A stretch of 10,012 nucleotides of DNA from an uncultured Ruminococcus sp. (GTDB taxonomy: Bacteria > Bacillota > Clostridia > Oscillospirales > Ruminococcaceae): contig CAMWKY010000055.1 in assembly GCA_947174965.1 (NCBI GenBank), positions 1-10,012 of the forward strand. The letters run 5' to 3'. Positions 1 through 10,012 of the stretch are shown here, piece by piece. Each line of letters opens with the position of its first letter. The stretch's first letter is position 1. The notes under the pieces were generated by a model, which did not search any database, was not told the DNA's origin, and saw only the letters and a program-made list of their open reading frames with translations. The position numbers and the translations under genes are program-made.

Positions 1-25
1 GTTTGTTACTAAATAATTCTATCAT
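1..25 (-). CDS. possible start of the next operon gene (partial, runs off left edge)
   Basis: An ATG on the minus strand opens a frame of eight codons (MIELFSNK) that is still open at the window edge. It starts 8 nt after the stop codon of the HAD phosphatase gene, which matches the tight spacing of the other genes in this operon. The region just upstream is a run of A residues with no clear Shine-Dalgarno sequence, which weakens the case. In related Ter biosynthetic clusters an ATP-grasp ligase is a common companion gene and none is present in this window. An ATP-grasp gene here would be expected, but eight codons cannot identify it. Confidence 0.3.
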
Positions 26-33
26 CTTTTTTT

Positions 34-774
34 CTATTTGTCAAGAATATAATTTATCAGAAAGTCAGAAAATATTTTATCAGTTGATTTAACAAAACAC
101 TTGTTTTTCAGAAGTGACATATCAAAATCATCAGGTACAACAGCTTTATCCGCAATATCAAGCATTGTGCAATCCATAGAACTGTCGCCAGCTGAAATAA
201 TAATGTCGCTCCTGATAATATCATTCAGCTTTTTTACGGCATTTCCTTTGTTGAGATTTTCGGGGAAAAAATAAATCTTCTTTCCTGATAATTCAATTGT
301 CATATCAACAGCTTCTGCCAGTTCAATTGCAGTTTTTTCTGCATCTGTATCATCTGCACAATATACATAAACATACGATTCGTCAATTATACGGCAATTC
401 GTGAATCGCTTGTCATCTTTATATCTGCTGTAAACCTCTTTCAGCTGATTTGCAAGGCTGTCACTTCTTTCAATCAGATTCCAGTCATTTGTTATAGTAC
501 CATTATGAATAAGTGTTGCGCCGTTTGATGCAAGTGCATATTCGGGGATATAGCCATGCGGAAAATGTATGCGATTATACTGTTCAACAGAACGTGTTGT
601 AACTGGAATAAAGCGGACTTTTTTCGTCATGGCAATAAAATTATTGTATACATATTGTGTCATAAATCCCTGCTCCATGTTCTTGTTTATTTCAACGCAG
701 ATATAGCCGTCCTCTTTCTTTTTGTACGAATAAATAAGCGTATTATCAAGGTCGCAGGCAAAAAATATATCCAT
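34..774 (-). CDS. HAD-superfamily phosphatase of the Ter biosynthetic cluster
   Basis: This 246-residue protein is a predicted cytosolic HAD hydrolase, probably removing phosphate from a small sugar- or nucleotide-like substrate. Motif I is DLDNT, with nucleophile D8 and acid/base D10. Motif II is around VTTRS (T59/T60), the likely motif III lysine is K176 in NKGNAV, and motif IV is GDSSMD (196-201). The segment between motifs II and III (about 63-175), including ASNGA at 82-86, is a C2-type cap as in the Cof and sucrose-phosphatase-like groups. I chose the ATG at 774 because AAGGAG lies 6 nt upstream. A longer frame from 819 has no ribosome binding site and would overlap the upstream gene by 34 nt. 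The Shine-Dalgarno site overlaps the stop codon of the StiP/PELOTA gene, so translation is probably coupled. Family assignment is firm. The substrate is unknown, and a role in the last dephosphorylation step of the Ter-linked metabolite is an inference from the neighbourhood. Confidence 0.88.
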   Translation of the reverse strand: MDIFFACDLDNTLIYSYKKKEDGYICVEINKNMEQGFMTQYVYNNFIAMTKKVRFIPVTTRSVEQYNRIHFPHGYIPEYALASNGATLIHNGTITNDWNLIERSDSLANQLKEVYSRYKDDKRFTNCRIIDESYVYVYCADDTDAEKTAIELAEAVDMTIELSGKKIYFFPENLNKGNAVKKLNDIIRSDIIISAGDSSMDCTMLDIADKAVVPDDFDMSLLKNKCFVKSTDKIFSDFLINYILDK

Positions 775-780
775 AAAAAA

Positions 781-786
781 CTCCTT
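781..786 (-). promoter_or_regulatory. ribosome binding site deciding the HAD phosphatase start
   Basis: The minus strand reads AAGGAG, then six T residues, then ATG at 774. The first A of the site is the last base of the upstream TGA stop codon (786-788). This supports the shorter start and translational coupling. Confidence 0.8.
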
Positions 787-1841
787 CAAATATCTGATAA
801 ATCTCTGATAAGTCCGCAAGATTTATAATGCTGTAGCGGATAAACTTCAACAGGAACATTTTTTTCTTTTGCAAGCTGATATATATGACCGAGGTTATTC
901 TCATCATTCAGACTATGCACAAGTATCTTATAAGGCACACGCCGAAGCAGTACCCTTGTTGTTTCGCCTATACTTGGTTTCACAAAATTGATACTGCTGA
1001 TATTGAACTCCTGACGGATTTTTTCAGCTTCCGCAAGTCCTGCATAAGTAAGCTGATTATCCGTGTCGGTGCTATAGGATTTTGTGAAGCTGAAATCCTG
1101 TTCTATGCGATTTATAAATTCATATGTCACATCTTTTTCAAGAAGTTCACTATAAAATGCACAACCATGAAAATCGTTTTCACCGATAATATCGGAGCGC
1201 AGAAAGGTCCTGCTAAGAAGTCCCGAAACAGTGGAATTAAGGCAGGAGCTTGCTATTAAAAAATCCTCATGAGTACCACATTTTTCAGCAGAATACGCAG
1301 AATCAGACAAAACAGCAAGGTCTTTTGCAACTTGCGGATAGTCTTTCAACGCCTGATTAAGAACACTCCTTATTGCTCCCTTGCCTGTCCAACCGTCTAC
1401 AAACTGTATTCCTTTTGGATTGTGTCTTTCAATGATATAATCCATAGCATTTTTGTCAATTCCTCTGCCACGTATGATAGAGATTGTATAATGCGGAATT
1501 TTACAGCAATATCTCTGTTCCATATAATGCTTTATAAGTATTCCTATTGACGTTCCTGCCCTTGCAAGCGATATAAGTACAGTATCTCTGCCCTTGTCGC
1601 TCCATATTTTACTTGCAACTGCTCCGACTGCATCAGCTGTTACAGCAGAAAAACGCTCCAGAGCAAGCTTATATATAGTCATGTATTCAGGTGTCGGCTC
1701 ATATTCAAGCGGTAACATCTCACTGTAATGTACTCCAGACTGAATTTTCGCTTCACGTTCTTTCGTTTCAAGAGGTGTAACAAGTCCTGTTATATCTTTC
1801 AGCAGGATTGTCACATCATCAGCTTTATAAGTTCCGAACAT
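786..1841 (-). CDS. StiP-family PRTase-like protein with C-terminal PELOTA domain
   Basis: This 351-residue protein matches a Ter-cluster family made of an N-terminal PRTase-like domain (Pfam StiP, formerly PRTase_1) and a C-terminal PELOTA_1 RNA-binding-like domain. Visible landmarks are SLARAGTSIGIL (91-102), an IIRGRGID segment (122-129) and the PRPP-loop-like FVDGWTGKGAI (147-157). A well-conserved block follows, from CGTHEDFLI (188-196) to CLNSTVSGL (200-208). The PELOTA-like part covers about 284-351. The family carries two incompatible labels, phosphoribosyltransferase and 'cysteine protease StiP'. The PRPP-type loop and the second PRTase next door favour the enzyme-of-synthesis reading here, but the conserved cysteines C188 and C200 keep the other open. 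The start at 1841 has a GGGAG site upstream and follows the stop of the TRSP gene by 4 nt. It probably acts in the cytosol with the lyase, the other PRTase and the HAD phosphatase. The reaction is unknown. Confidence 0.88.
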   Translation of the reverse strand: MFGTYKADDVTILLKDITGLVTPLETKEREAKIQSGVHYSEMLPLEYEPTPEYMTIYKLALERFSAVTADAVGAVASKIWSDKGRDTVLISLARAGTSIGILIKHYMEQRYCCKIPHYTISIIRGRGIDKNAMDYIIERHNPKGIQFVDGWTGKGAIRSVLNQALKDYPQVAKDLAVLSDSAYSAEKCGTHEDFLIASSCLNSTVSGLLSRTFLRSDIIGENDFHGCAFYSELLEKDVTYEFINRIEQDFSFTKSYSTDTDNQLTYAGLAEAEKIRQEFNISSINFVKPSIGETTRVLLRRVPYKILVHSLNDENNLGHIYQLAKEKNVPVEVYPLQHYKSCGLIRDLSDI

Positions 1842-1845
1842 ATTT

Positions 1846-2946
1846 TTACTCTCCCATGAAATAGTATCTTTTTTCTATACCGTGCTTTGCAAGTACAGCA
1901 TCAAGCATAGCAAGGGCTTTCGGGTAGGGATTTTTTGCATCTGAAATGACAACAACTGCATCATATTCATGTATATTGTAGATATAGTTTACTCTTGCGG
2001 AATCATAAAAGCTTGCTATCTGAAATCCGTTTTTTATCGGGTAATCCTCTGCACTGTTAATGCAGATTGGACTTCTTGTTGTTGAGTGGCAGAACGTATT
2101 TATATTATAGCGTTCCGCAATCAGCTTTGCACAGCAAACAGACGGAAACATACATTCCTCCGTACCAATAAACAGAACATTTTCAAATGCCGAAAAATCA
2201 ACACTTTCTGCAATCTGTTCCGCAATATTCCCGCATTTTACAATATAATCAAATATATTAGTAAAATATCGTGTATCGGGAAACACAATCCTTGAAAAAT
2301 CAGGTATAACTTCAGATTCGTCAGTAATAGACGGTGCATACAGTTTACTGAAATTCCTTTTAAGCATTTCATCTGTCCAATGAACAGAAAAAAGACTTAC
2401 AAAAAATATGTTGTTCTGCTCAAAAAATGCCGTTCTTTCAGGTGTAAGGCGATTTATTACTGAGCCTACAACAAACTTTATCTCCGCAAGTTCGGGGACT
2501 TCTGCCCTCATAGCCTGAATTATATTATACAGTGTTTTTCCTGTTGATATTTCGTCATCAACAAGTACAATTTCACTTATATTTTTAATATAATCAGCAA
2601 TATTTCTGATACAGAGTTTCTGATTTACAGCGTGACTATGTTCCTCTTTAAAGCAGATGCAGTCGCTTTCGGGGATATAATCTTCTCTTGTTGTATTGAT
2701 GTAAATACCGCCCAGTTTTGCCGAAACAACTACACCTATAGCTGTAGCTGTTTCAGCAAATCCGATAGTCAGATGTGCATCAGGATAACTCTGCTTGATT
2801 TTTATGCCAAGTTCGCTGAAAAGTTCCAATGCTTCATCTGGTTTTGTCGGAATGTGCTTTGCCTGAATTTTATTCACAAGAAGATATGAACGCTTTTTAT
2901 TATTATATCTGCTTGCAATTTCTATAATCTCATTCAGATTTTTCAT
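1846..2946 (-). CDS. phosphoribosyltransferase with C-terminal TRSP domain
   Basis: This 366-residue protein is a two-domain, Ter-associated enzyme (Pfam PRTase_2 plus TRSP). The first domain has a textbook PRPP-binding loop, VLVDDEISTGKT (127-138), preceded by GFAETATAIG (62-71), so it should transfer to or from phosphoribosyl pyrophosphate. The second domain (about 256-366) opens with the strand VLFIGTEECMFP and contains the diagnostic TRSP residues at 290-293, within HSTTRSPI. The gene starts with an ATG that overlaps the stop codon of the lyase gene by 4 nt (ATGA), with GAGGTGA just upstream, so its translation is very likely coupled to the lyase. It ends 4 nt before the StiP/PELOTA gene. 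Family assignment is confident from the motifs. The base or acceptor substrate is unknown. In the proposed pathway it would supply a ribosyl-phosphate moiety for a nucleoside-like product, which is inference. Confidence 0.92.
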   Translation of the reverse strand: MKNLNEIIEIASRYNNKKRSYLLVNKIQAKHIPTKPDEALELFSELGIKIKQSYPDAHLTIGFAETATAIGVVVSAKLGGIYINTTREDYIPESDCICFKEEHSHAVNQKLCIRNIADYIKNISEIVLVDDEISTGKTLYNIIQAMRAEVPELAEIKFVVGSVINRLTPERTAFFEQNNIFFVSLFSVHWTDEMLKRNFSKLYAPSITDESEVIPDFSRIVFPDTRYFTNIFDYIVKCGNIAEQIAESVDFSAFENVLFIGTEECMFPSVCCAKLIAERYNINTFCHSTTRSPICINSAEDYPIKNGFQIASFYDSARVNYIYNIHEYDAVVVISDAKNPYPKALAMLDAVLAKHGIEKRYYFMGE

Positions 2947-3905
2947 TGGCTCACCTCATTTATACCATATATCTCACCAAGAATAAGCATTTTTTCTGCC
3001 CATTTCTGATGCGTCTTTACCTCATTCATTCTGTTTCCGCTGATATTTCTGCTCACACCAAGTTTTTCCGTCCATGAAAGAATCTGCTTTGCATCTTCAT
3101 AATCCTGTCGGCAAGGCTTCAGACTTTCATATATAACAGGCAGTTGTGACGGGTGAATAGCTGTTTTTCCGATAAATCCGTTAAGCCTGTCAAGTTCAAG
3201 CTCCTTTTCAAGTCCGGTTTTCCATTTATCGTCCGTACCGTTGTCGTAGTATTCCCATACAGCACCCGAAACAATGTAATCACCTGAAAAAACGTTCAGT
3301 ATATTGACGAGAACATCTCTCACAACACCAACCTGATATATATTTTGATTGATATTTCTGCGAAGTCCGTACAGATTCAGAAAATCGTTACCGCCGACAC
3401 GTATATTAAGAACATACTTTCCTGCATAGTCAATCTTCTGTTTCAGCATCTCAAGCTTTTCCTCACCGTTATATGCTGTAAACATAGGACTTTCAATAGT
3501 CGGCATTATATACATTGTCCTGTTGATTGAACTGTTGATTCTGTCCGTTATTTCAAGATACTTGTCGGCATTGTCAAGACTGAATTTAGGCAGGACAAAT
3601 CCTGTAAGCAGTTCTGCATCATAACCAAGCATCTCATATACGTGCTGTAGATGTTCGGGCGTTCTCACTCTCACAAAAAGCAATGGCAGATTTTCTGTAT
3701 TTCTTAAATCAGCCATTATTTTTTTCAGATTAATTTCTGCCTCGTCTAAAATATCATCTGTAATAGAATCCTCTAAACACAATGCAAGAGAAGTTATATT
3801 TTTTATCATATTTTCTTTGAGATGATGTACAATATTTCTGTCCGTTGCAGGAGTATACAGCAGTCCGCCGACTTTATAAGGCAAAAAATTATCCTCAATA
3901 ATCAT
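2943..3905 (-). CDS. CitE-like C-C bond lyase (HpcH/HpaI TIM-barrel), Ter-associated
   Basis: This 320-residue protein belongs to the CitE / HpcH-HpaI aldolase superfamily, most likely the Ter-linked 'C-C_Bond_Lyase' branch. These are cytosolic, metal-dependent enzymes that break or form a carbon-carbon bond next to a carboxylate. Superfamily landmarks appear in order: LYTPA (16-20), LCLEDS (42-47), RVR (79-81), LPKF (105-108), PTIESP (135-140, metal ligand E138), VGGNDFLN (170-177, metal ligand D174) and GKTAIHPSQ (246-254). All expected metal-ligand and substrate-phosphate positions seem present, so the enzyme should be active. It is the first gene of the downstream module. It starts at an ATG preceded by AAAGGGGAG at 8 nt, and a strong hairpin lies just upstream. 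Its stop overlaps the next gene's start. It is not citrate lyase beta, since no citrate lyase alpha or gamma genes are near. The real substrate is unknown. Confidence 0.9.
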   Translation of the reverse strand: MIIEDNFLPYKVGGLLYTPATDRNIVHHLKENMIKNITSLALCLEDSITDDILDEAEINLKKIMADLRNTENLPLLFVRVRTPEHLQHVYEMLGYDAELLTGFVLPKFSLDNADKYLEITDRINSSINRTMYIMPTIESPMFTAYNGEEKLEMLKQKIDYAGKYVLNIRVGGNDFLNLYGLRRNINQNIYQVGVVRDVLVNILNVFSGDYIVSGAVWEYYDNGTDDKWKTGLEKELELDRLNGFIGKTAIHPSQLPVIYESLKPCRQDYEDAKQILSWTEKLGVSRNISGNRMNEVKTHQKWAEKMLILGEIYGINEVSQ

Positions 3906-3931
3906 TCCAAATTCTCCCCTTTACACAAATC

Positions 3932-3958
3932 CGCACACACCAAAAAATGATGTGTGCG
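3932..3958 (-). promoter_or_regulatory. RNA hairpin between calcium ATPase and lyase genes
   Basis: In the sense (minus-strand) RNA, CGCACACAUCA pairs with UGGUGUGUGCG. This gives an 11-bp stem with one G-U wobble closed by a UUUUU loop. On the plus strand the same bases pair for only 8 bp, so the structure is best in the direction of transcription. It sits in the longest intergenic gap of the window (61 nt), just after the ATPase stop codon. It is followed by GAUUUGUGU and not by a clean U tract, so a full intrinsic terminator is doubtful. A partial terminator, an attenuator or an RNA processing and stability element separating the two halves of the operon would fit. Confidence 0.6.
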
Positions 3959-3966
3959 TTCTGTAA

Positions 3967-6594
3967 TTATTTTTTACCTGTGAATAATTTTCTTATTAAA
4001 TCAAGCGGAATTACTATAATCGCCAAAAGAATACATACAAGCCACTGCATTGGATTGAGTGCTGTAACGCTAAGGAAGTCACCGCCGAATGTTACGAAGA
4101 TTAACTGTACTACAAAGATAGAGAACATAACAGCTAAAAAGCTCTTGTTTCTGCCGATACCGTTAAAGATATTGAGATGATTTGTTCTTGCGTTGAATCC
4201 GTTGAATGTTATAGCCATCATAAATGTTGCGAAAAGTGCGGATTTAAGAACAGTTTTATCCATTTCAACAAGGTCTTTATAGCTTTCTCCCACTATACCC
4301 AGCATTTCACGCATGAACGGGAAGAAAAGAATACCAAGACAAACAACTGTTATATACAATGCACTGATGAGAATTTCAATAAGCATATCCTTACTTATAA
4401 TACTTGCTGAACGTGGAATCGGTTTTTCTTTCATGTACTCTTTAAGAGCTGGCTCACTTCCGAACGCAATAGCGGCAAGTGTGTCCATAGCAAGATTTAT
4501 GAGAAGAAGCTGAATAACTGTAAGTGCTACATTTTCGCCAAGAAGCGGAGAAATAAAGCAGGTCAGAACAGCCGCAACGTTTACTGTGAGCTGGAATATG
4601 AGGAATTTACGTATACTCTTGAACATTGTACGTCCATAGAGAATAGCTTTTTCGATTGATGAGAAATTGTCGTCCATAATTGTTATATCGCCGGCATCTT
4701 TCGCTACTTCTGTACCACTTCCCATAGCAAAACCAACATCAGCCTTTTTAAGTGCAGGAGAATCGTTTACGCCGTCTCCGGTCATACCTACAACGTAGTT
4801 GAGTTCCTGCGCAACTCTTACAAGTCGGCTCTTATCCATAGGCAATGCACGTGCAACAACTCGAAGATTAGGCAGGATTGCTTTAAGTTCGTCATCTGAT
4901 TTTTCAGCCATTTCAGCAGATGTCAAAACAACGTGTTCGGGACTTGTAAGAAGTCCTGCTTCTTTTGAGATTGCAGCAGCAGTTTCTTTTCTGTCACCTG
5001 TTACCATTACAACCTGAATACCTGCATTCTGTACTTCCTTGATTGCATCAGCAGCTTCTTTTCTTACATTGTCACGTATACTTAATACACAAAGAAGTGT
5101 AAGACCCTTGTTTTCGTCGTCGCCCTCAACCTTTGCAACACCAAGCAGACGCATTGAACGGCTTGCCTGTGCATCACTATATTCTGTAAGCTTTGCCTTG
5201 TCGGCATCTGTAAATTCGTGTACACTGCCGTTTTCGTCTGTAAAATGAGTACAGCGGTCAACAATTCTTTCAGCCGCACCCTTGACATATGTCATAGTTT
5301 TTCCGTCTGTATTTACTGTTACACTTGATGATTTCTTGTTTGAATCAAATGCACTGAAATTTACAACATTATTCTTGTTTACTGAATCTGCAACACCTGA
5401 ATCAACAAGAAATTTCATCATTGCTCTGTCAGTGCTGTTTCCTCCGATAACTTCACCGTTGCTTGCTGTTGAACTGTTGTTCACACCTACACCGACAATC
5501 ATATCATCAATCATTGGCTTCGGCAGTTTTGAAAGTGCGTCAAGAGTTTTTGCATTGCCAAGTGCAAGCTCTACAACAGAAAGTTTGCCCTCTGTAATTG
5601 TACCTGTCTTATCACTGAAAAGAATACTAAGACTTCCTGCTGTTTCAAGTCCGTTGATTTTTCTTACAAGTACATTATCTTTTGCCATTCTCAAACTCTG
5701 GAACGAAAGAAGAATTGATGTGAGCATCGGCAGACCCTCTGGAACTGCACATACAATAACTGTAACAGCTACAGTGATAGCATCAATTATAAGTCTAATC
5801 CATTCGCTTGCATTATCGGGAATATTTCCGCCGATAAGTGTCTTTGCAAGTACACCTGCTACAATACAGATAGCACCTACATATCCGAATGTTGAAATCT
5901 GCTTTGCAAGTTTACCAAGTTTAACCTGAAGCGGAGTTTCTCTTGTTTCCTCTTGAACTTCGAGTGCAAGCTTGCCAAAGAGTGTATTATCTCCGACAAC
6001 CTTTACTTCAATATACGCCTCACCACTACATACAACAGTACCACGATAAACATAGTGCTTATTGAGGAGGTCGTTTATGTCATATGAATCACCCGGAATT
6101 TTCTCTGCTTCCTCTGTTTCACCGTTAAGGGCAGCCTGGTCTACTTTGATTTCACCCTCAACAATATTGCCGTCAGCAGCAATTTTATCGCCTGCCTGTA
6201 AAAATACAATATCACCAACAACAACGTCTGCAACATGAATTTCAACAAGCTGTCCGTCTCTGATTACTTTTGCCATTTCTTTTGCAAGTTCCTCTGCTTT
6301 AAGTGCAGATGCCTTGCCTTCCTGCTTGCTTTCGCTGACAGACGAAACACCGTTTGCAATCATAATCGCAATAAGAACTCCTGCCGGTTCATACCATTCT
6401 GCCTGTCCCATAATCCACAAGATTACCTGTACAACGAGAGCCACAAGAAGAATCATAATCATAGGGTCTTTGAATCCCTCTAAGATTTTTTTCCATAGTG
6501 GGTCAGTGGGAATTTCCGTGAGCGTATTTGCGCCATGCTGTTTACGGCTTTCCTCAACCTGTTCTGATGTTAAACCTTTTAACTTCATTTCCAA
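3967..6594 (-). CDS. calcium-transporting P-type ATPase (PMCA-like, P2B)
   Basis: This integral membrane pump of 875 residues is predicted to export Ca2+ using ATP. Visible parts are a short cation-ATPase N-terminus, M1/M2 (about 43-62 and 70-87) and the actuator loop LNGET (156-160). M4 carries VPEGLP (284-289), with the calcium-ligand Glu E286. The phosphorylation site is DKTGT (D328), the nucleotide domain has KGA (438-440), and TGD (532-534) and GDGVND (606-611) follow. M6 has NLAMD (700-704), then further C-terminal helices. The M5/M6 sequence matches the plasma-membrane calcium pump type, which carries one Ca2+ site. There is no C-terminal calmodulin-binding tail and no CPC motif, so it is not a heavy-metal pump. 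I place the start at TTG 6594, with AAGGAG 5 nt upstream; ATG at 6588 would have an 11-nt spacer and is the alternative. It follows the TerA-like gene by 33 nt. An odd point is Asn in place of the Thr of the usual TGES. Confidence 0.95.
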   Translation of the reverse strand: MEMKLKGLTSEQVEESRKQHGANTLTEIPTDPLWKKILEGFKDPMIMILLVALVVQVILWIMGQAEWYEPAGVLIAIMIANGVSSVSESKQEGKASALKAEELAKEMAKVIRDGQLVEIHVADVVVGDIVFLQAGDKIAADGNIVEGEIKVDQAALNGETEEAEKIPGDSYDINDLLNKHYVYRGTVVCSGEAYIEVKVVGDNTLFGKLALEVQEETRETPLQVKLGKLAKQISTFGYVGAICIVAGVLAKTLIGGNIPDNASEWIRLIIDAITVAVTVIVCAVPEGLPMLTSILLSFQSLRMAKDNVLVRKINGLETAGSLSILFSDKTGTITEGKLSVVELALGNAKTLDALSKLPKPMIDDMIVGVGVNNSSTASNGEVIGGNSTDRAMMKFLVDSGVADSVNKNNVVNFSAFDSNKKSSSVTVNTDGKTMTYVKGAAERIVDRCTHFTDENGSVHEFTDADKAKLTEYSDAQASRSMRLLGVAKVEGDDENKGLTLLCVLSIRDNVRKEAADAIKEVQNAGIQVVMVTGDRKETAAAISKEAGLLTSPEHVVLTSAEMAEKSDDELKAILPNLRVVARALPMDKSRLVRVAQELNYVVGMTGDGVNDSPALKKADVGFAMGSGTEVAKDAGDITIMDDNFSSIEKAILYGRTMFKSIRKFLIFQLTVNVAAVLTCFISPLLGENVALTVIQLLLINLAMDTLAAIAFGSEPALKEYMKEKPIPRSASIISKDMLIEILISALYITVVCLGILFFPFMREMLGIVGESYKDLVEMDKTVLKSALFATFMMAITFNGFNARTNHLNIFNGIGRNKSFLAVMFSIFVVQLIFVTFGGDFLSVTALNPMQWLVCILLAIIVIPLDLIRKLFTGKK

Positions 6595-6599
6595 TTTTA

Positions 6600-6605
6600 C
6601 TCCTT
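6600..6605 (-). promoter_or_regulatory. ribosome binding site of the calcium ATPase gene
   Basis: The minus strand reads AAGGAG, TAAAA, TTG, GAA, ATG. The spacing is 5 nt to TTG (6594) and 11 nt to ATG (6588). Other genes of this operon use about 4 to 9 nt, which mildly favours TTG. Confidence 0.55.
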
Positions 6606-6627
6606 TTTTATATACTTTAAACGAAAA

Positions 6628-7776
6628 TCAGTCTTTTTTACCTGCTTTCCATTTAAGACCCCAGTTAAAAGCATTATCTGCATATACCTGATTTTTATAA
6701 AACTCAACAACTTTCTTTACAGTAAAATTGTCGCTGACGTTTTCAAGCAATGCAACTGCACAAAGCGTCAGGTTACTTCCATATTCGTCCATTTTCACGA
6801 CTACTTCAGGACTTCCTGCACATTTTACCGTAACAACTCCGTCTGTTCCCTGCCAGTCTGCACTGCCATCATAAATAAAAGCATAAACAAGTATACGCTT
6901 TATCTCTGAAACCATTTCTGCATTTATACGGAGCGTTTCGCCGTCTGATGATGCACCCGTTCTGTCGTCACCGTCAAGCATTATATATGGTGGCTGATTC
7001 AGTGAGCCGAATCTATTTCCAAGTGCCTGAATAGTTCCCTTTGAACCGTCTTTCAGCTCATACAGACAGCCTAAATCCAAATCGACAGGCTTTGCCGTAA
7101 ATCCCGTCTGTTGTTTCCAGTTGAGATTTATTGAAATTTCACCCTTAATATTATTTCCGCACTTCACAAGACTTATTTTCTGCCCTTTTTGCAGATTGAT
7201 TTTCTGCGGTGGCGGAGTTGTTTCTGCTGTTTTTTCTGTAACTGGTTGTGGTGGAGAAAGATTAATGCTGTCTTTGCCATAAGATTTAATCAAATCATTG
7301 AAACCGTCATTGAATCCCATAGCAACCGCACTTATTCGCCATACATCTTTTTTATAGATTTCAGCCGTTACAACAGCTTTTTCCATTTTAAAATCAGTAC
7401 CGCTCAGTTGAAAATCCAATGCACTGCTGTCATTCTGATAAATGCTGAATACATGAGAAACAATGTTTCTTATCAGTGAACCACCTTCAACAACGAAAGC
7501 AAATACAAGCTTGTTTATACTTTCTGGCAATTCTGAAAGACTGATTCTGAAATCAGCTGAATTTTCTGAACTGCTGTACATGATTTCGCTGTTATGTGAT
7601 AATCTGCGATTATGAAAAATCACATAGTTTTCATCAGTGATTCTGTTATCTGAATCAACTCCGAAACAGAAAAAACTATATTTGTCAGAGCCGTCAACTT
7701 TCATTTTAACATTAAAAGCACTGTTGACATCAATGTGATTTTCCAGTTTATCACGCATACCACGCTGTAAATCCAT
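6628..7776 (-). CDS. tandem TerD-domain protein with TerA-like C-terminal domain
   Basis: This 382-residue protein holds two TerD-superfamily domains joined by a Pro/Thr-rich linker (about 174-192). The first (1-168) starts MDLQRGMRDKL and closely resembles the N-terminus of the next gene upstream. The second begins with the classic TerD opening INLQKGQKISL (193-203). It carries VDLDLGCLYEL (231-241), TIQALGN (248-254), LDGDDRTG (267-274) and the GE pair at 279-280, a pattern typical of TerA. TerD-type domains bind Ca2+ through such acidic loops. The second domain keeps these residues, while the first lacks the usual acidic loop (it reads SSSENSADFRI at 68-78) and may not bind calcium. No signal peptide or membrane helix is visible, so it is probably cytosolic or a peripheral part of a membrane-associated Ter complex. 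The ATG has AGAGGGG 6 nt upstream. It lies 16 nt after the TerD-vWA gene. Its biochemical role is unknown, and tellurite resistance itself should not be assumed. Confidence 0.9.
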   Translation of the reverse strand: MDLQRGMRDKLENHIDVNSAFNVKMKVDGSDKYSFFCFGVDSDNRITDENYVIFHNRRLSHNSEIMYSSSENSADFRISLSELPESINKLVFAFVVEGGSLIRNIVSHVFSIYQNDSSALDFQLSGTDFKMEKAVVTAEIYKKDVWRISAVAMGFNDGFNDLIKSYGKDSINLSPPQPVTEKTAETTPPPQKINLQKGQKISLVKCGNNIKGEISINLNWKQQTGFTAKPVDLDLGCLYELKDGSKGTIQALGNRFGSLNQPPYIMLDGDDRTGASSDGETLRINAEMVSEIKRILVYAFIYDGSADWQGTDGVVTVKCAGSPEVVVKMDEYGSNLTLCAVALLENVSDNFTVKKVVEFYKNQVYADNAFNWGLKWKAGKKD

Positions 7777-7792
7777 AATAATCCCCTCTTTC

Positions 7793-9034
7793 TTATATCA
7801 TATTTTTGTACCTGATTTCTTTCAGCCACTGCGGAAACTCATTCAATAGACGGCTGTACAATTCATTATTCGGAACTCTCCTGAAATCATCAAGAGAAAA
7901 GAAATTTGCATTGTCAACATATCTTCCTGTCATTGTGTCAAGCTCCTCAAGTACTCCGTATCTGTTTCCGCCGATACCGACAAACTGCCAGAAAATCGGC
8001 TTATCTGATACTTCTTTCAATATCTTCTTTACTTTATGCGGACTGTTAAACTCACCGTCTGTTACAAATATAACATATGCAGGCAGTCTTGTTCCGTTGT
8101 ACTCCTTACATACGTCTTTCATAACATCAACCGCATTAGTGCCAAATCCAAGATTAGACATAAGATTTTTCCAATTTTTCGGAACAGCATATGTATAATT
8201 TCCGAGATTTACAGAGTCCATTCTCTGCGTACTTGAACCATAATACCAGAAATCAAGTTCACCGTCATCATCAAACTGTACAGCTAAAGGCAGAATCTTA
8301 TTTACAATCTCCTGAACTGTACCATTTTCATATCTTCCGCTCATTGAACCTGATATATCCATAACAAGTGCAACTCTTGCAACAGTATCAAGAAGATTGC
8401 GTTTTTTCAACTCAACTGTAAGAGGTTTTGCAAGTGAAACAAGTTGTGGAGCTTTTTCAAGCTTTTTTTCAAGAGATACTTTTGCAGGCTGTTGAACAGG
8501 TGCAGGCGGTGGAGCTGACATATCCTCCTCACCGCCGTATGAACGAAGCAAATCACCCAGTCCACCGAAAAATCCTCTTGCAACTGCATTTATTCGCCAT
8601 ACTTCCTTGCGGTATATTTCAACTGTTATAATTGCTTTTTCTTTTGTAAAATCATTTCCACTCAACTGCAATGCAAGAACATTGTTTCCGTTCTGATTCA
8701 ATGTGAACATATGAGAATTTATGTCGCCCATTGATGTATTGCCGTCAATACTTGCTGTAAATACAAGCTTATTTATATTCATGGGCAATAATGCAAGGTT
8801 TATTCTGAAATTTGCTGAATTTCCTGAACCACTGTAATTTATTTCACTGTTTGGTGATGATGTTTGATTGTAGAAAATCATATATCTGTCATCAGAAAGT
8901 TGGTCATTTGCATCAACTCCAAAACAACAGAAATCATAAGTATCTGCGCCATTTATGCTCATCTGAATATCAATTGTGCTGTTTATATTGATATATTTGT
9001 CAAGTCTGTCACGCATACCACGCTTTAAATCCAT
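7793..9034 (-). CDS. TerD domain fused to TerF-type von Willebrand A domain
   Basis: This 413-residue protein has an N-terminal TerD-like domain (1-168), a Pro/Ala-rich linker (about 173-185) with a VSLEKKLEK stretch, and a C-terminal vWA domain of the TerF type (about 218-410). The vWA metal site (MIDAS) looks complete: DISGSMS (226-232) gives D226, S228 and S230, GTN gives T299, and TDGE gives D326. It should bind a divalent metal and mediate protein-protein contacts, probably as a scaffold for the Ter complex. The N-terminal domain is clearly a paralogue of the one in the next gene and also lacks the usual acidic calcium loop (it reads GSGNSANFRI at 69-78), though D34 is kept. I chose ATG 9034 because a perfect GGAGGTG ends 6 nt upstream. 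A GTG at 9043 lies inside that site and is unlikely to be used. It follows the AIM24 gene by 15 nt. The architecture is confidently recognised; the precise role is inferred. Confidence 0.93.
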   Translation of the reverse strand: MDLKRGMRDRLDKYININSTIDIQMSINGADTYDFCCFGVDANDQLSDDRYMIFYNQTSSPNSEINYSGSGNSANFRINLALLPMNINKLVFTASIDGNTSMGDINSHMFTLNQNGNNVLALQLSGNDFTKEKAIITVEIYRKEVWRINAVARGFFGGLGDLLRSYGGEEDMSAPPPAPVQQPAKVSLEKKLEKAPQLVSLAKPLTVELKKRNLLDTVARVALVMDISGSMSGRYENGTVQEIVNKILPLAVQFDDDGELDFWYYGSSTQRMDSVNLGNYTYAVPKNWKNLMSNLGFGTNAVDVMKDVCKEYNGTRLPAYVIFVTDGEFNSPHKVKKILKEVSDKPIFWQFVGIGGNRYGVLEELDTMTGRYVDNANFFSLDDFRRVPNNELYSRLLNEFPQWLKEIRYKNMI

Positions 9035-9040
9035 AAAAAA

Positions 9041-9047
9041 CACCTCC
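9041..9047 (-). promoter_or_regulatory. ribosome binding site deciding the TerD-vWA start
   Basis: GGAGGTG, then six T residues, precedes ATG 9034. The last bases of the site form an in-frame GTG that would otherwise extend the protein by three residues. The site is near-perfect, so ATG is preferred. Confidence 0.85.
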
Positions 9048-9049
9048 GA

Positions 9050-9742
9050 TTAATCTATAATATGAGTTTCATGCGGTCTTTCTGTCGGCTGTATAAGAAC
9101 AGTTGTTTTAGCACTTCCATGCCATTCAAACATATAGCTTTCACCTGAATGTTGTCCGATAAGATTCCGCCATGATATATCAAGTTTTATTTCAGGGTCG
9201 GCATTTGTCCAGCATACAACAGCATCAGGGTCAACTGTAATTGTTGAGTTATTGTCCATATTGCTTAAAACAACAGGATTGCCGTCTGACAGAACAGCAA
9301 CAAAAGATTCATTGCCCGTACCAGTCAGAACAGATGTGAACATACCTTTTTGGGAAATAAGACCCTGACCAAGAAATCTCACACTATAATCACACTGATT
9401 TGAAAATGCAAGCAGATTTTCGCTTTCAACATAAACACTTTCACCTGGCTGAAGATGATACACAACAACGTGTTGTTCCTGATTTGCATAGTATGTCACG
9501 CTGTCGCCCGAAAACTCAACTTTCATAAGCGGTAAATTTTCACCTGTAGCACGTCTTATAATCTGTCCGAATATAGCTTGTCCGATATTCTGTTGAGGTC
9601 CTAATATTACTTTTGTAAATTTGAAATTTCTTGCCCCGTTACATTCCCCCGCAATAAATGCACCCTGCTTTGTGAAAATACAGTCATTTCCGGTACATTT
9701 CACCATGAGACACAATTCATTAATAACCTGAAAATCTACCAA
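9050..9742 (-). CDS. AIM24-family protein of the Ter stress operon
   Basis: This 230-residue soluble protein belongs to the AIM24 (TIGR00266-like) beta-rich family, whose bacterial members often sit in Ter operons and whose molecular role is unclear. Family landmarks are KQGAFIAGE, ATGENLPLMKV, the central YHLQPGESVYVES, then FLGQGLISQKGMFTSVLTGTG, SDGNPVVL and, near the end, ESYMFEWHG. No signal peptide or membrane segment is visible. I place the start at TTG 9742 because AAAGGGTGA lies 5 nt upstream. This lets the protein begin at the strand MVDFQVINEL, as usual for the family, and leaves a 16-nt gap after the terD-like stop. The upstream ATG at 9778 would add 12 residues, overlap the preceding gene by 20 nt and has no ribosome binding site. 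It may help organise the membrane-linked Ter complex, which is inference from recurrent gene neighbourhood. Confidence 0.9.
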   Translation of the reverse strand: MVDFQVINELCLMVKCTGNDCIFTKQGAFIAGECNGARNFKFTKVILGPQQNIGQAIFGQIIRRATGENLPLMKVEFSGDSVTYYANQEQHVVVYHLQPGESVYVESENLLAFSNQCDYSVRFLGQGLISQKGMFTSVLTGTGNESFVAVLSDGNPVVLSNMDNNSTITVDPDAVVCWTNADPEIKLDISWRNLIGQHSGESYMFEWHGSAKTTVLIQPTERPHETHIID

Positions 9743-9747
9743 ATAAA

Positions 9748-9756
9748 TCACCCTTT
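9748..9756 (-). promoter_or_regulatory. ribosome binding site supporting a TTG start for the AIM24 gene
   Basis: The minus strand reads AAAGGGTGA, TTTAT, TTG. The site begins just after the stop codon of the TerD gene (9759-9761). No comparable site exists before the ATG at 9778. Confidence 0.65.
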
Positions 9757-9758
9757 CA

Positions 9759-10012
9759 TTATTTAAGCTGGATTCCATACAGACCGCAGAAATCCGCTAA
9801 ATCTTTTCTGTAGCCTGAACCTACTGCATAGAATTTCCATGAATCCTTATATCTATATAATTCCCCTATAACAAGAGATGTCACACTTTCTGGCAGATAT
9901 TCGCCGTTATATCGTGCAATCTCCGTTCCGTTTCCGTCCATTATTCTTGCGTATATATTTTTAACCATTGAAAAATCAAGCTTTCTTTGAAATGATTCAT
10001 ATATAGTAAGAC
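9759..10012 (-). CDS. TerD-domain stress protein, C-terminal part (5' end beyond window)
   Basis: This is the C-terminal end of a TerD-family protein. The reading frame stays open upstream of the ATG at 9968 to the window edge, with residues LTIYESFQRKLDFS preceding it. The Met at 9968 is therefore internal and the gene is cut by the window rather than truncated in nature. The visible 84 residues carry the family ending: a strand with NIYARIMDGNGTEIARY, then GELYRYKDSWKFYAVGSGY, and a final helix and YGI as in single-domain TerD/TerE/TerZ proteins, which are about 190 residues long. TerD proteins are calcium-binding and cytosolic. Which paralogue it is cannot be told from this part, and the calcium ligands lie outside the window. 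Its stop codon lies 16 nt before the AIM24 start, consistent with one operon. Confidence 0.88.
   Translation of the reverse strand, partial: LTIYESFQRKLDFSMVKNIYARIMDGNGTEIARYNGEYLPESVTSLVIGELYRYKDSWKFYAVGSGYRKDLADFCGLYGIQLK

Follow-up and report, generated by a model that had tools for sequence, protein, structure and literature searches.

A Ter-type stress gene cluster of Ruminococcus with a PMCA-type calcium pump beside TerD

Gene content and organization

We analysed the gene cluster on contig C55 (CAMWKY010000055.1) of an uncultured Ruminococcus sp. (assembly GCA_947174965.1). The window, that is, the whole stretch of DNA analysed, is the entire contig of 10,012 bases; it is truncated at both ends and belongs to a draft genome that is 83% complete. 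Nine coding frames, all on the minus strand, fill it. Assigned with Pfam and NCBIfam profiles, they make the contig a Ter-type stress cluster without TerC, in which a calcium pump of the PMCA type stands between TerD genes and an enzyme module. From the 5' end of the cluster, the features are as follows.

9759..10010, minus strand: TerD domain protein, C-terminal 83 amino acids, the N-terminal part lying past the contig end (PF02342, 75 bits)
9050..9778, minus strand: AIM24-family protein, 242 amino acids (PF01987, 79 bits)
7793..9043, minus strand: TerD + vWA (TerF-like) fusion, 416 amino acids as listed (PF10138, 240 bits; PF02342, 90 bits)
6628..7776, minus strand: TerD + second TerD/TerA-like domain, 382 amino acids (PF02342, two stretches)
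3967..6594, minus strand: PMCA-type Ca2+ P-type ATPase, 875 amino acids (TIGR01517, 633 bits; cut-off 507)
3932..3958, minus strand: stem-loop of 11 pairs with a weak T tail in the pump-lyase gap (fold z -6.1)
2943..3905, minus strand: CitE/HpcH-like C-C bond lyase, 320 amino acids (PF15617, 326 bits)
1846..2946, minus strand: PRTase_2 + TRSP protein, 366 amino acids (PF15609 + PF12500)
786..1841, minus strand: StiP + PELOTA protein, 351 amino acids (PF11202 + PELOTA_1, PF15608)
34..774, minus strand: HAD-family hydrolase (PF08282, 29 bits)

Every Ter-linked and enzyme-module family named in an initial annotation of the sequence was recovered by the profiles, including the PMCA-type pump, and the recurrence of the arrangement that it had supposed was also found. 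Since related genomes have this gene set as well, it is beyond chance. PF02342 has four matches above cut-off in the contig. The nearest relative found is locus L024 (JAIDTI010000083.1, a Ruminococcus sp. metagenome-assembled genome; loci and genomes carry our working numbers, L and G), whose lyase is 95% identical. It holds a longer orthologue of the cut TerD (L024:3482-4273, 97.6% identity over 83 amino acids) and, upstream of it, three further TerD genes; being near-identical, this locus shows what the contig end removed. A TerF-type vWA domain is present, and TelA, which is not on this cut contig, occurs in relatives such as L018. The Ter ATP-grasp family (PF15632) has no match in the contig and two in the whole 83% complete genome, in frames of 1072 and 1089 amino acids that we take, from their size, to be carbamoyl-phosphate synthase. 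A plasmid origin was rejected, the window DNA having no plasmid match, as was a phage origin, viral contigs holding no close relative of the lyase.

The genes are tightly spaced. TerD and AIM24 overlap by 20 nucleotides, and the next gaps measure 6, 16, 33 and 61 nucleotides, the last lying between pump and lyase; the lyase and PRTase-TRSP genes overlap by 4, StiP follows after 4, and HAD after 11 if it begins at the ATG at 774. This ATG is preceded by GGAG, and the open reading frame as listed reaches a TTG at 819. The pump is listed with a TTG start and has an ATG two codons downstream. Judged by eye, most starts are preceded by purine-rich letters resembling ribosome-binding sites. Because a stable stem-loop lies in the 61-nucleotide gap, the single operon proposed in the initial annotation stays, in the sense of one transcript, a supposition. 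Where the HAD gene ends, a promoter-like site (TTGACA-17-TAGAAT, 16-44, minus strand) is directed out of the contig.

The pump and its link to TerD

The pump scores over the cut-off of TIGR01517, and the PMR1-type model TIGR01522 stays under its own. Its PEGL, FQLTVN and NLAMD motifs align with those of ACA8 and PMCA1, and these membrane motifs hold the residues that form the Ca2+ site of PMCA-type pumps. With the Ca2+-site motifs kept, family and site residues together suggest that the protein exports Ca2+.

For the genus, we searched 125 congeneric genomes for StiP, the pump and TerD, retaining pump candidates with an E-value of 1e-100 or better and scoring up to seven per genome. TerD is present in 44 genomes, StiP in 23, and the clade of the window's pump, defined by an identity of 45% or more (a limit chosen after the table was seen), in 39. 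Pump and TerD go together: TerD occurs in 38 of the 39 pump-clade genomes versus 6 of the 86 without the clade (Fisher p 1.5e-24, uncorrected for relatedness), and 38 of the 44 TerD-positive genomes have the pump. The sole clade genome without TerD, G126, is fragmented, and its pump adjoins the lyase at a contig end (L119).

The link is also physical. Among the 30 best pump loci, StiP-less genomes included, TerD neighbours the pump in 29, the remaining locus being cut by the contig end, and in most of them TerD is the very gene that follows the pump. In eight of nine other pump genomes, the contig that carries the pump likewise has TerD next to it (L070, L076-L078, L081, L147, L148, L150); in the ninth, G016, TerD lies beside one of two pump copies (L019), and the second, a fragment (L149), stops at a contig end, the 7.6 kb of sequence read there containing no TerD. 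The pump beside TerD is no chance neighbour.

StiP, in contrast, is found in only half of the TerD-positive genomes (22/44), and the pump is indifferent to it, occurring in 20 of 22 genomes with StiP and 18 of 22 without (Fisher p 0.66). Of the genus StiP clusters, 17 of 19 have the pump, a count that excludes four of the 23 StiP contigs as too short or cut (G120, G005, G126, G076). Since StiP makes no difference to the presence of the pump, TerD and the pump form the core and the enzyme half an optional add-on. This is at odds with the initial annotation, which joined the two halves into one unit and singled out the ATPase-lyase junction for a neighbourhood survey; the conserved link is that between TerD and the pump.

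Phylogeny of the pumps

A tree was built from 69 of the 82 pumps gathered, after 13 rows (near-duplicates and one partial sequence) had been left out. It places 35 of the 37 TerD-linked pumps in one group (SH-aLRT 98); the two outliers, L196 (G445) and L145 (an Alkaliphilus plasmid), fall among unlinked pumps. TerD linkage requires 3 changes on the tree, compared with 23.2 when shuffled, and a single clade for all 37 TerD-linked pumps is rejected (p-AU 1.2e-6). Separate captures of the pump are the simplest reading of this pattern, albeit not the only one.

Exporters beside TerD in other lineages

TerC (PF03741) was found in none of the 125 genus genomes, the 83% complete genome of the window included; 8 of 14 controls scored over the cut-off. 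Outside the genus, we compared the TerD clusters of 29 genomes, reached through StiP or TerD searches; G169 (no TerD on its 6-kb contig) and G599 (a single weak TerD match with an internal stop) had been dropped. A P-type Ca-ATPase is found in 15 of the 29, TerC in 8, a protein of the Na+/Ca2+ exchanger family in one (L093, PF01699) and none of these in 5. Counted by family, the pump occurs in 12 (that of the window included), TerC in 5 and the exchanger in 1; beyond the window's class alone, 8 genomes have the pump, 8 TerC and 3 neither. Pump and TerC occur together in none of the 29 clusters. In three of the 15 pump genomes, TerD and the pump form a pair separate from the StiP locus (G828, G850, G516); G047 falls outside the StiP-positive set. 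Because pump, TerC or exchanger stands beside TerD and the first two never coincide, we infer an exchangeable exporter slot. One TerD cluster in which neither pump nor TerC was found has a xanthine/uracil-permease-family gene right before the lyase (L088:13606-14898).

The enzyme module

The contig holds the metabolite module families PF15617, PF15609, PF12500, PF11202, PF15608 and PF08282. Fold comparison by VIA-align, which barely covered the TRSP and PELOTA parts, predicts an adenine phosphoribosyltransferase (APRT)-like fold for residues 1-191 of PRTase-TRSP and a type-I phosphoribosyltransferase fold with a phosphoribosyl pyrophosphate loop for StiP-PELOTA. For StiP, the listed matches comprise phosphoribosyltransferases (among them PyrR) and a capsule multienzyme, with no protease in the list; C200 and H225 are nearly invariant. 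The database name "cysteine protease" is thus without support from the matches listed, and the predicted fold puts in doubt the label used in Pfam and NCBI annotation. Two phosphoribosyltransferases in one module would also narrow the range of its possible products.

The C-C lyases of L015-L017, about 32-33% identical, were set aside as paralogues; the neighbours of the L015 lyase are fumarase, thiamine pyrophosphate-enzyme, aldo/keto reductase and MmgE/PrpD genes. In L020 (6017-10524), kinase, vWA and leucine-rich repeat genes lie between TerD and the lyase, together with one that looks PP2C-like by eye. Kinase-like genes also stand beside the pump in L081, L104, L108, L110 and L112.

Stem-loops and replaced cassettes

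All five loci whose pump-lyase gap was folded have a stable stem-loop there (z -3.8 to -6.2). Its sequence is common to the window and L024; L025, L072 and L075 have another sequence at the same place. Across the mapped loci, z falls below -3 in 17 of the 22 gaps that follow the pump versus 23 of 110 other gaps (gaps of 30-300 nucleotides; L173 and L176-L179 left out as repeats of other loci, the window and L073 being near-copies), and in 7 of 8 gaps leading from TerD to the lyase. The rank test gives p 1.3e-4, a value that is too small, the loci being related. By eye, few gaps have a strong T tract, which makes attenuation or mRNA processing likelier than full termination. The pump-lyase stem-loop is a candidate attenuator or mRNA-processing/stability element.

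The window and L024 are about 95% identical outside two stretches, the PRTase-TRSP gene (1846-2946) and the vWA half of the TerD-vWA gene (7813-8530). In 200-base steps, PRTase-TRSP is about 66-79% identical to its L024 counterpart, compared with 93-99% for five other genes, and the TerD-vWA counterpart in L024 has no vWA match. Both stretches look like replaced cassettes. Gene replacement was preferred to accelerated evolution of the PRTase-TRSP protein, as third codon positions have diverged too (identity 0.56 versus 0.86-0.93).

Discussion

On balance, we lean slightly toward viewing this locus as a Ruminococcus stress cluster of the Ter type, with the position of the integral membrane protein TerC occupied by a PMCA-type Ca2+ exporter whose lineage is mostly TerD-linked. 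Ca2+-binding TerD proteins would register a stress that perturbs the envelope or increases cytosolic Ca2+. The TerD, TerD-vWA, TerD-TerA and AIM24 proteins may then gather at the membrane around the pump, whose predicted export of Ca2+ would reset or limit the signal. As an optional add-on, the C-C lyase, the APRT-like PRTase-TRSP, the StiP-PELOTA phosphoribosyltransferase and the HAD phosphatase would probably yield a nucleoside-like compound that is ribosylated and then dephosphorylated.

The recurrence of the TerD-pump pairing in other lineages suggests that metal-ion export is a core step of the Ter system. A more general proposition, which we put forward only tentatively, is that a Ter system requires one cation exporter in the membrane, whose identity is exchangeable: some families would use TerC, Ruminococcus and about ten further families a PMCA pump that is largely dedicated and was captured more than once, and one family a Na+/Ca2+ exchanger. 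If this is true, Ter would at heart be a bacterial machine for signalling by, and resetting of, a divalent cation, probably Ca2+, and tellurite resistance would be a side effect.

Several findings weigh against these interpretations or limit the support for them. No pump was found in six of the 44 TerD-positive genus genomes (G070, G079, G092, G093, G009, G014), two of the six being on contigs below 9 kb. A control in favour of the link is that TerD is absent near 19 other Ca-ATPase-like loci in the genus, a selection from the rows at 32-36% identity, but 13 of them come from TerD-less genomes, where no such neighbour is possible, so that the informative control is 0 of 6. The exclusivity of pump and TerC likewise counts in favour, with limits: the chance of zero overlap between pump and TerC is about 7e-4, by genome or by family, for an exclusivity that was tested after the pattern had been noticed and in which deeper lineage effects remain; all 8 TerC genomes lie outside the window's class, and lineage history may account for part of the pattern. 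Outside the genus, the search for TerC covered only the surroundings of the clusters and used only a model derived from 7 of these proteins; five clusters (G187, G290, G795, G898, G637) have no exporter in the stretch read. Heterologous data in the available part of PMC12054061 speak against Zn/Mn efflux by TerC, which may not be an exporter. The pump tree was made by a quick method with a midpoint root, and its large group contains the long branches L191 and L199. Finally, an Entomospira (spirochaete) plasmid (L210, NZ_CP118182.1) carries a PMCA-type pump, 41.5% identical, at 7602-10265, with no TerD in the stretch read; related pumps thus occur outside Ter clusters.

The TerD domains themselves are a further such point. 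Their acidic motifs would supply the Ca2+ ligands, and in our alignment the N-terminal TerD domains of the TerD-vWA and TerD-TerA proteins lack the DLD and GDGDDE-like motifs, which disfavours a simple model in which every TerD senses Ca2+. Calcium sensing by TerD/TerA, as initially proposed, agrees with the window in part: the second half of the TerD-TerA protein retains similar acids (DLDL and GDD...DGE), and the three upstream TerD genes of L024 have motifs that are complete or nearly so. Ca2+ binding has been described for Klebsiella TerD, and a link to calcium homeostasis for a Streptomyces TerD gene (both as cited in PMC8123226, available in part).

Of the other explanations, the one that survives best is anti-phage or inter-bacterial defence, in which TerD-type proteins would sense a nucleoside-like alarm signal produced by the enzymes, with the membrane as the site of action of the pump and the vWA proteins. 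Relatives that are otherwise near-identical diverge strongly in PRTase-TRSP and in the vWA half, a pattern common in conflict systems, and the distribution is patchy, with StiP in 23 of the 125 genus genomes. A defence view of Ter systems is also given in PMC7824862, as far as its available text goes. However, two replaced genes in a single genome pair are weak evidence, and we regard this explanation as unlikely.

We judge it improbable that the pump serves a metal or stress resistance of its own (to Ca2+, Mn2+ or another divalent ion), co-inherited with Ter in a stress island but acting in a separate pathway. Such independence would fit the variable order at the pump, which precedes the lyase, TerD or phosphoribosyltransferase gene and in L089 lies on the strand opposite to the enzymes, as well as the stem-loop that often splits the pump gene from the next. 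It fits less well with TerD staying adjacent to the pump in StiP-less genomes and with pumps from different branches of the tree adjoining TerD.

Some P-type "Ca" ATPases carry Mn. That the pump exports Mn2+ rather than Ca2+, acting like Bacillus TerC in manganese handling and the metalation of secreted proteins, nevertheless seems very improbable: TerC proteins have been tied to Mn (PMC10550928, available in part) and the pump occurs where TerC is absent, but the pump is of the PMCA and not the PMR1 type, and an Rfam search of 21 sources returned no yybP-ykoY Mn riboswitch, only tRNAs and one SAM riboswitch scoring over the gathering threshold.

The slightly favoured reading, that of a Ca2+ exporter in place of TerC, would offer a direct experimental handle on Ter systems, in that a pump of well-known chemistry is found repeatedly beside TerD where TerC is absent. 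Assays could address Ca2+ transport, Ca2+-dependent binding between TerD and the pump, and the ability of the pump to substitute for TerC.

Comparison with known systems

With the Ter-dependent stress response system of Anantharaman, Iyer and Aravind (2012), as far as the available part of that account goes, the contig has in common TerD, a TerF-type vWA protein, phosphoribosyltransferases, HAD and the lyase module; relatives of the window also share TelA, YceG, the Ter ATP-grasp and the kinase/vWA set. The window differs in that it is without TerC, has a PMCA pump beside TerD and has no Ter ATP-grasp in the contig. The enterobacterial plasmid ter operon (terZABCDEF) shares the TerD family, but TerC, its central membrane component (PMC12054061, same limit), has no match in the genus of the window. 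StiP relatives, about 36% identical, are present on many enterobacterial plasmids.

Among pumps of known structure, the PMCA/type IIB Ca2+ ATPases ACA8 (8qmp) and PMCA1 (6a69) share the family score and the Ca2+-site motifs with the window's pump, whereas the motifs of Listeria LMCA1 (9euq) are more distant. The window's pump sits in the TerD-linked bacterial group of a tree that took in none of these PDB pumps.

A literature search, which did not extend to the 2012 founding paper (and this may describe one), found no TerD-linked Ca2+ pump in bacterial Ter clusters; nearest is a preprint on phages (PMC12363816). In its available part, Jug and other huge gut phages are reported to have TerD genes and a Ca2+ P-type ATPase, highly transcribed, in one replicon. 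They differ from the window in that the ATPase is paired with a small upstream gene, and the TerD genes lie in other transcription units. A faecal sequence labelled "Bacteriophage sp." (L144, MT836648.1) holds StiP, lyase, YceG, TelA, three TerD genes and the start of a pump; we do not accept it as a phage, its neighbouring genes looking bacterial by eye and its label being doubtful.

The plasmid NZ_CP058558.1 of Alkaliphilus sp. B6464 carries lyase, PRTase, StiP, HAD, two TerD, AIM24 and P-type ATPase genes on one strand within about 11 kb. It differs in one opposite-strand gene between lyase and PRTase and in its pump, which is 34% identical and belongs to another branch of the tree. The Ruminococcus cluster is a real and recurrent variant of the Ter cluster, with a pump in place of TerC and a function that its gene families suggest.

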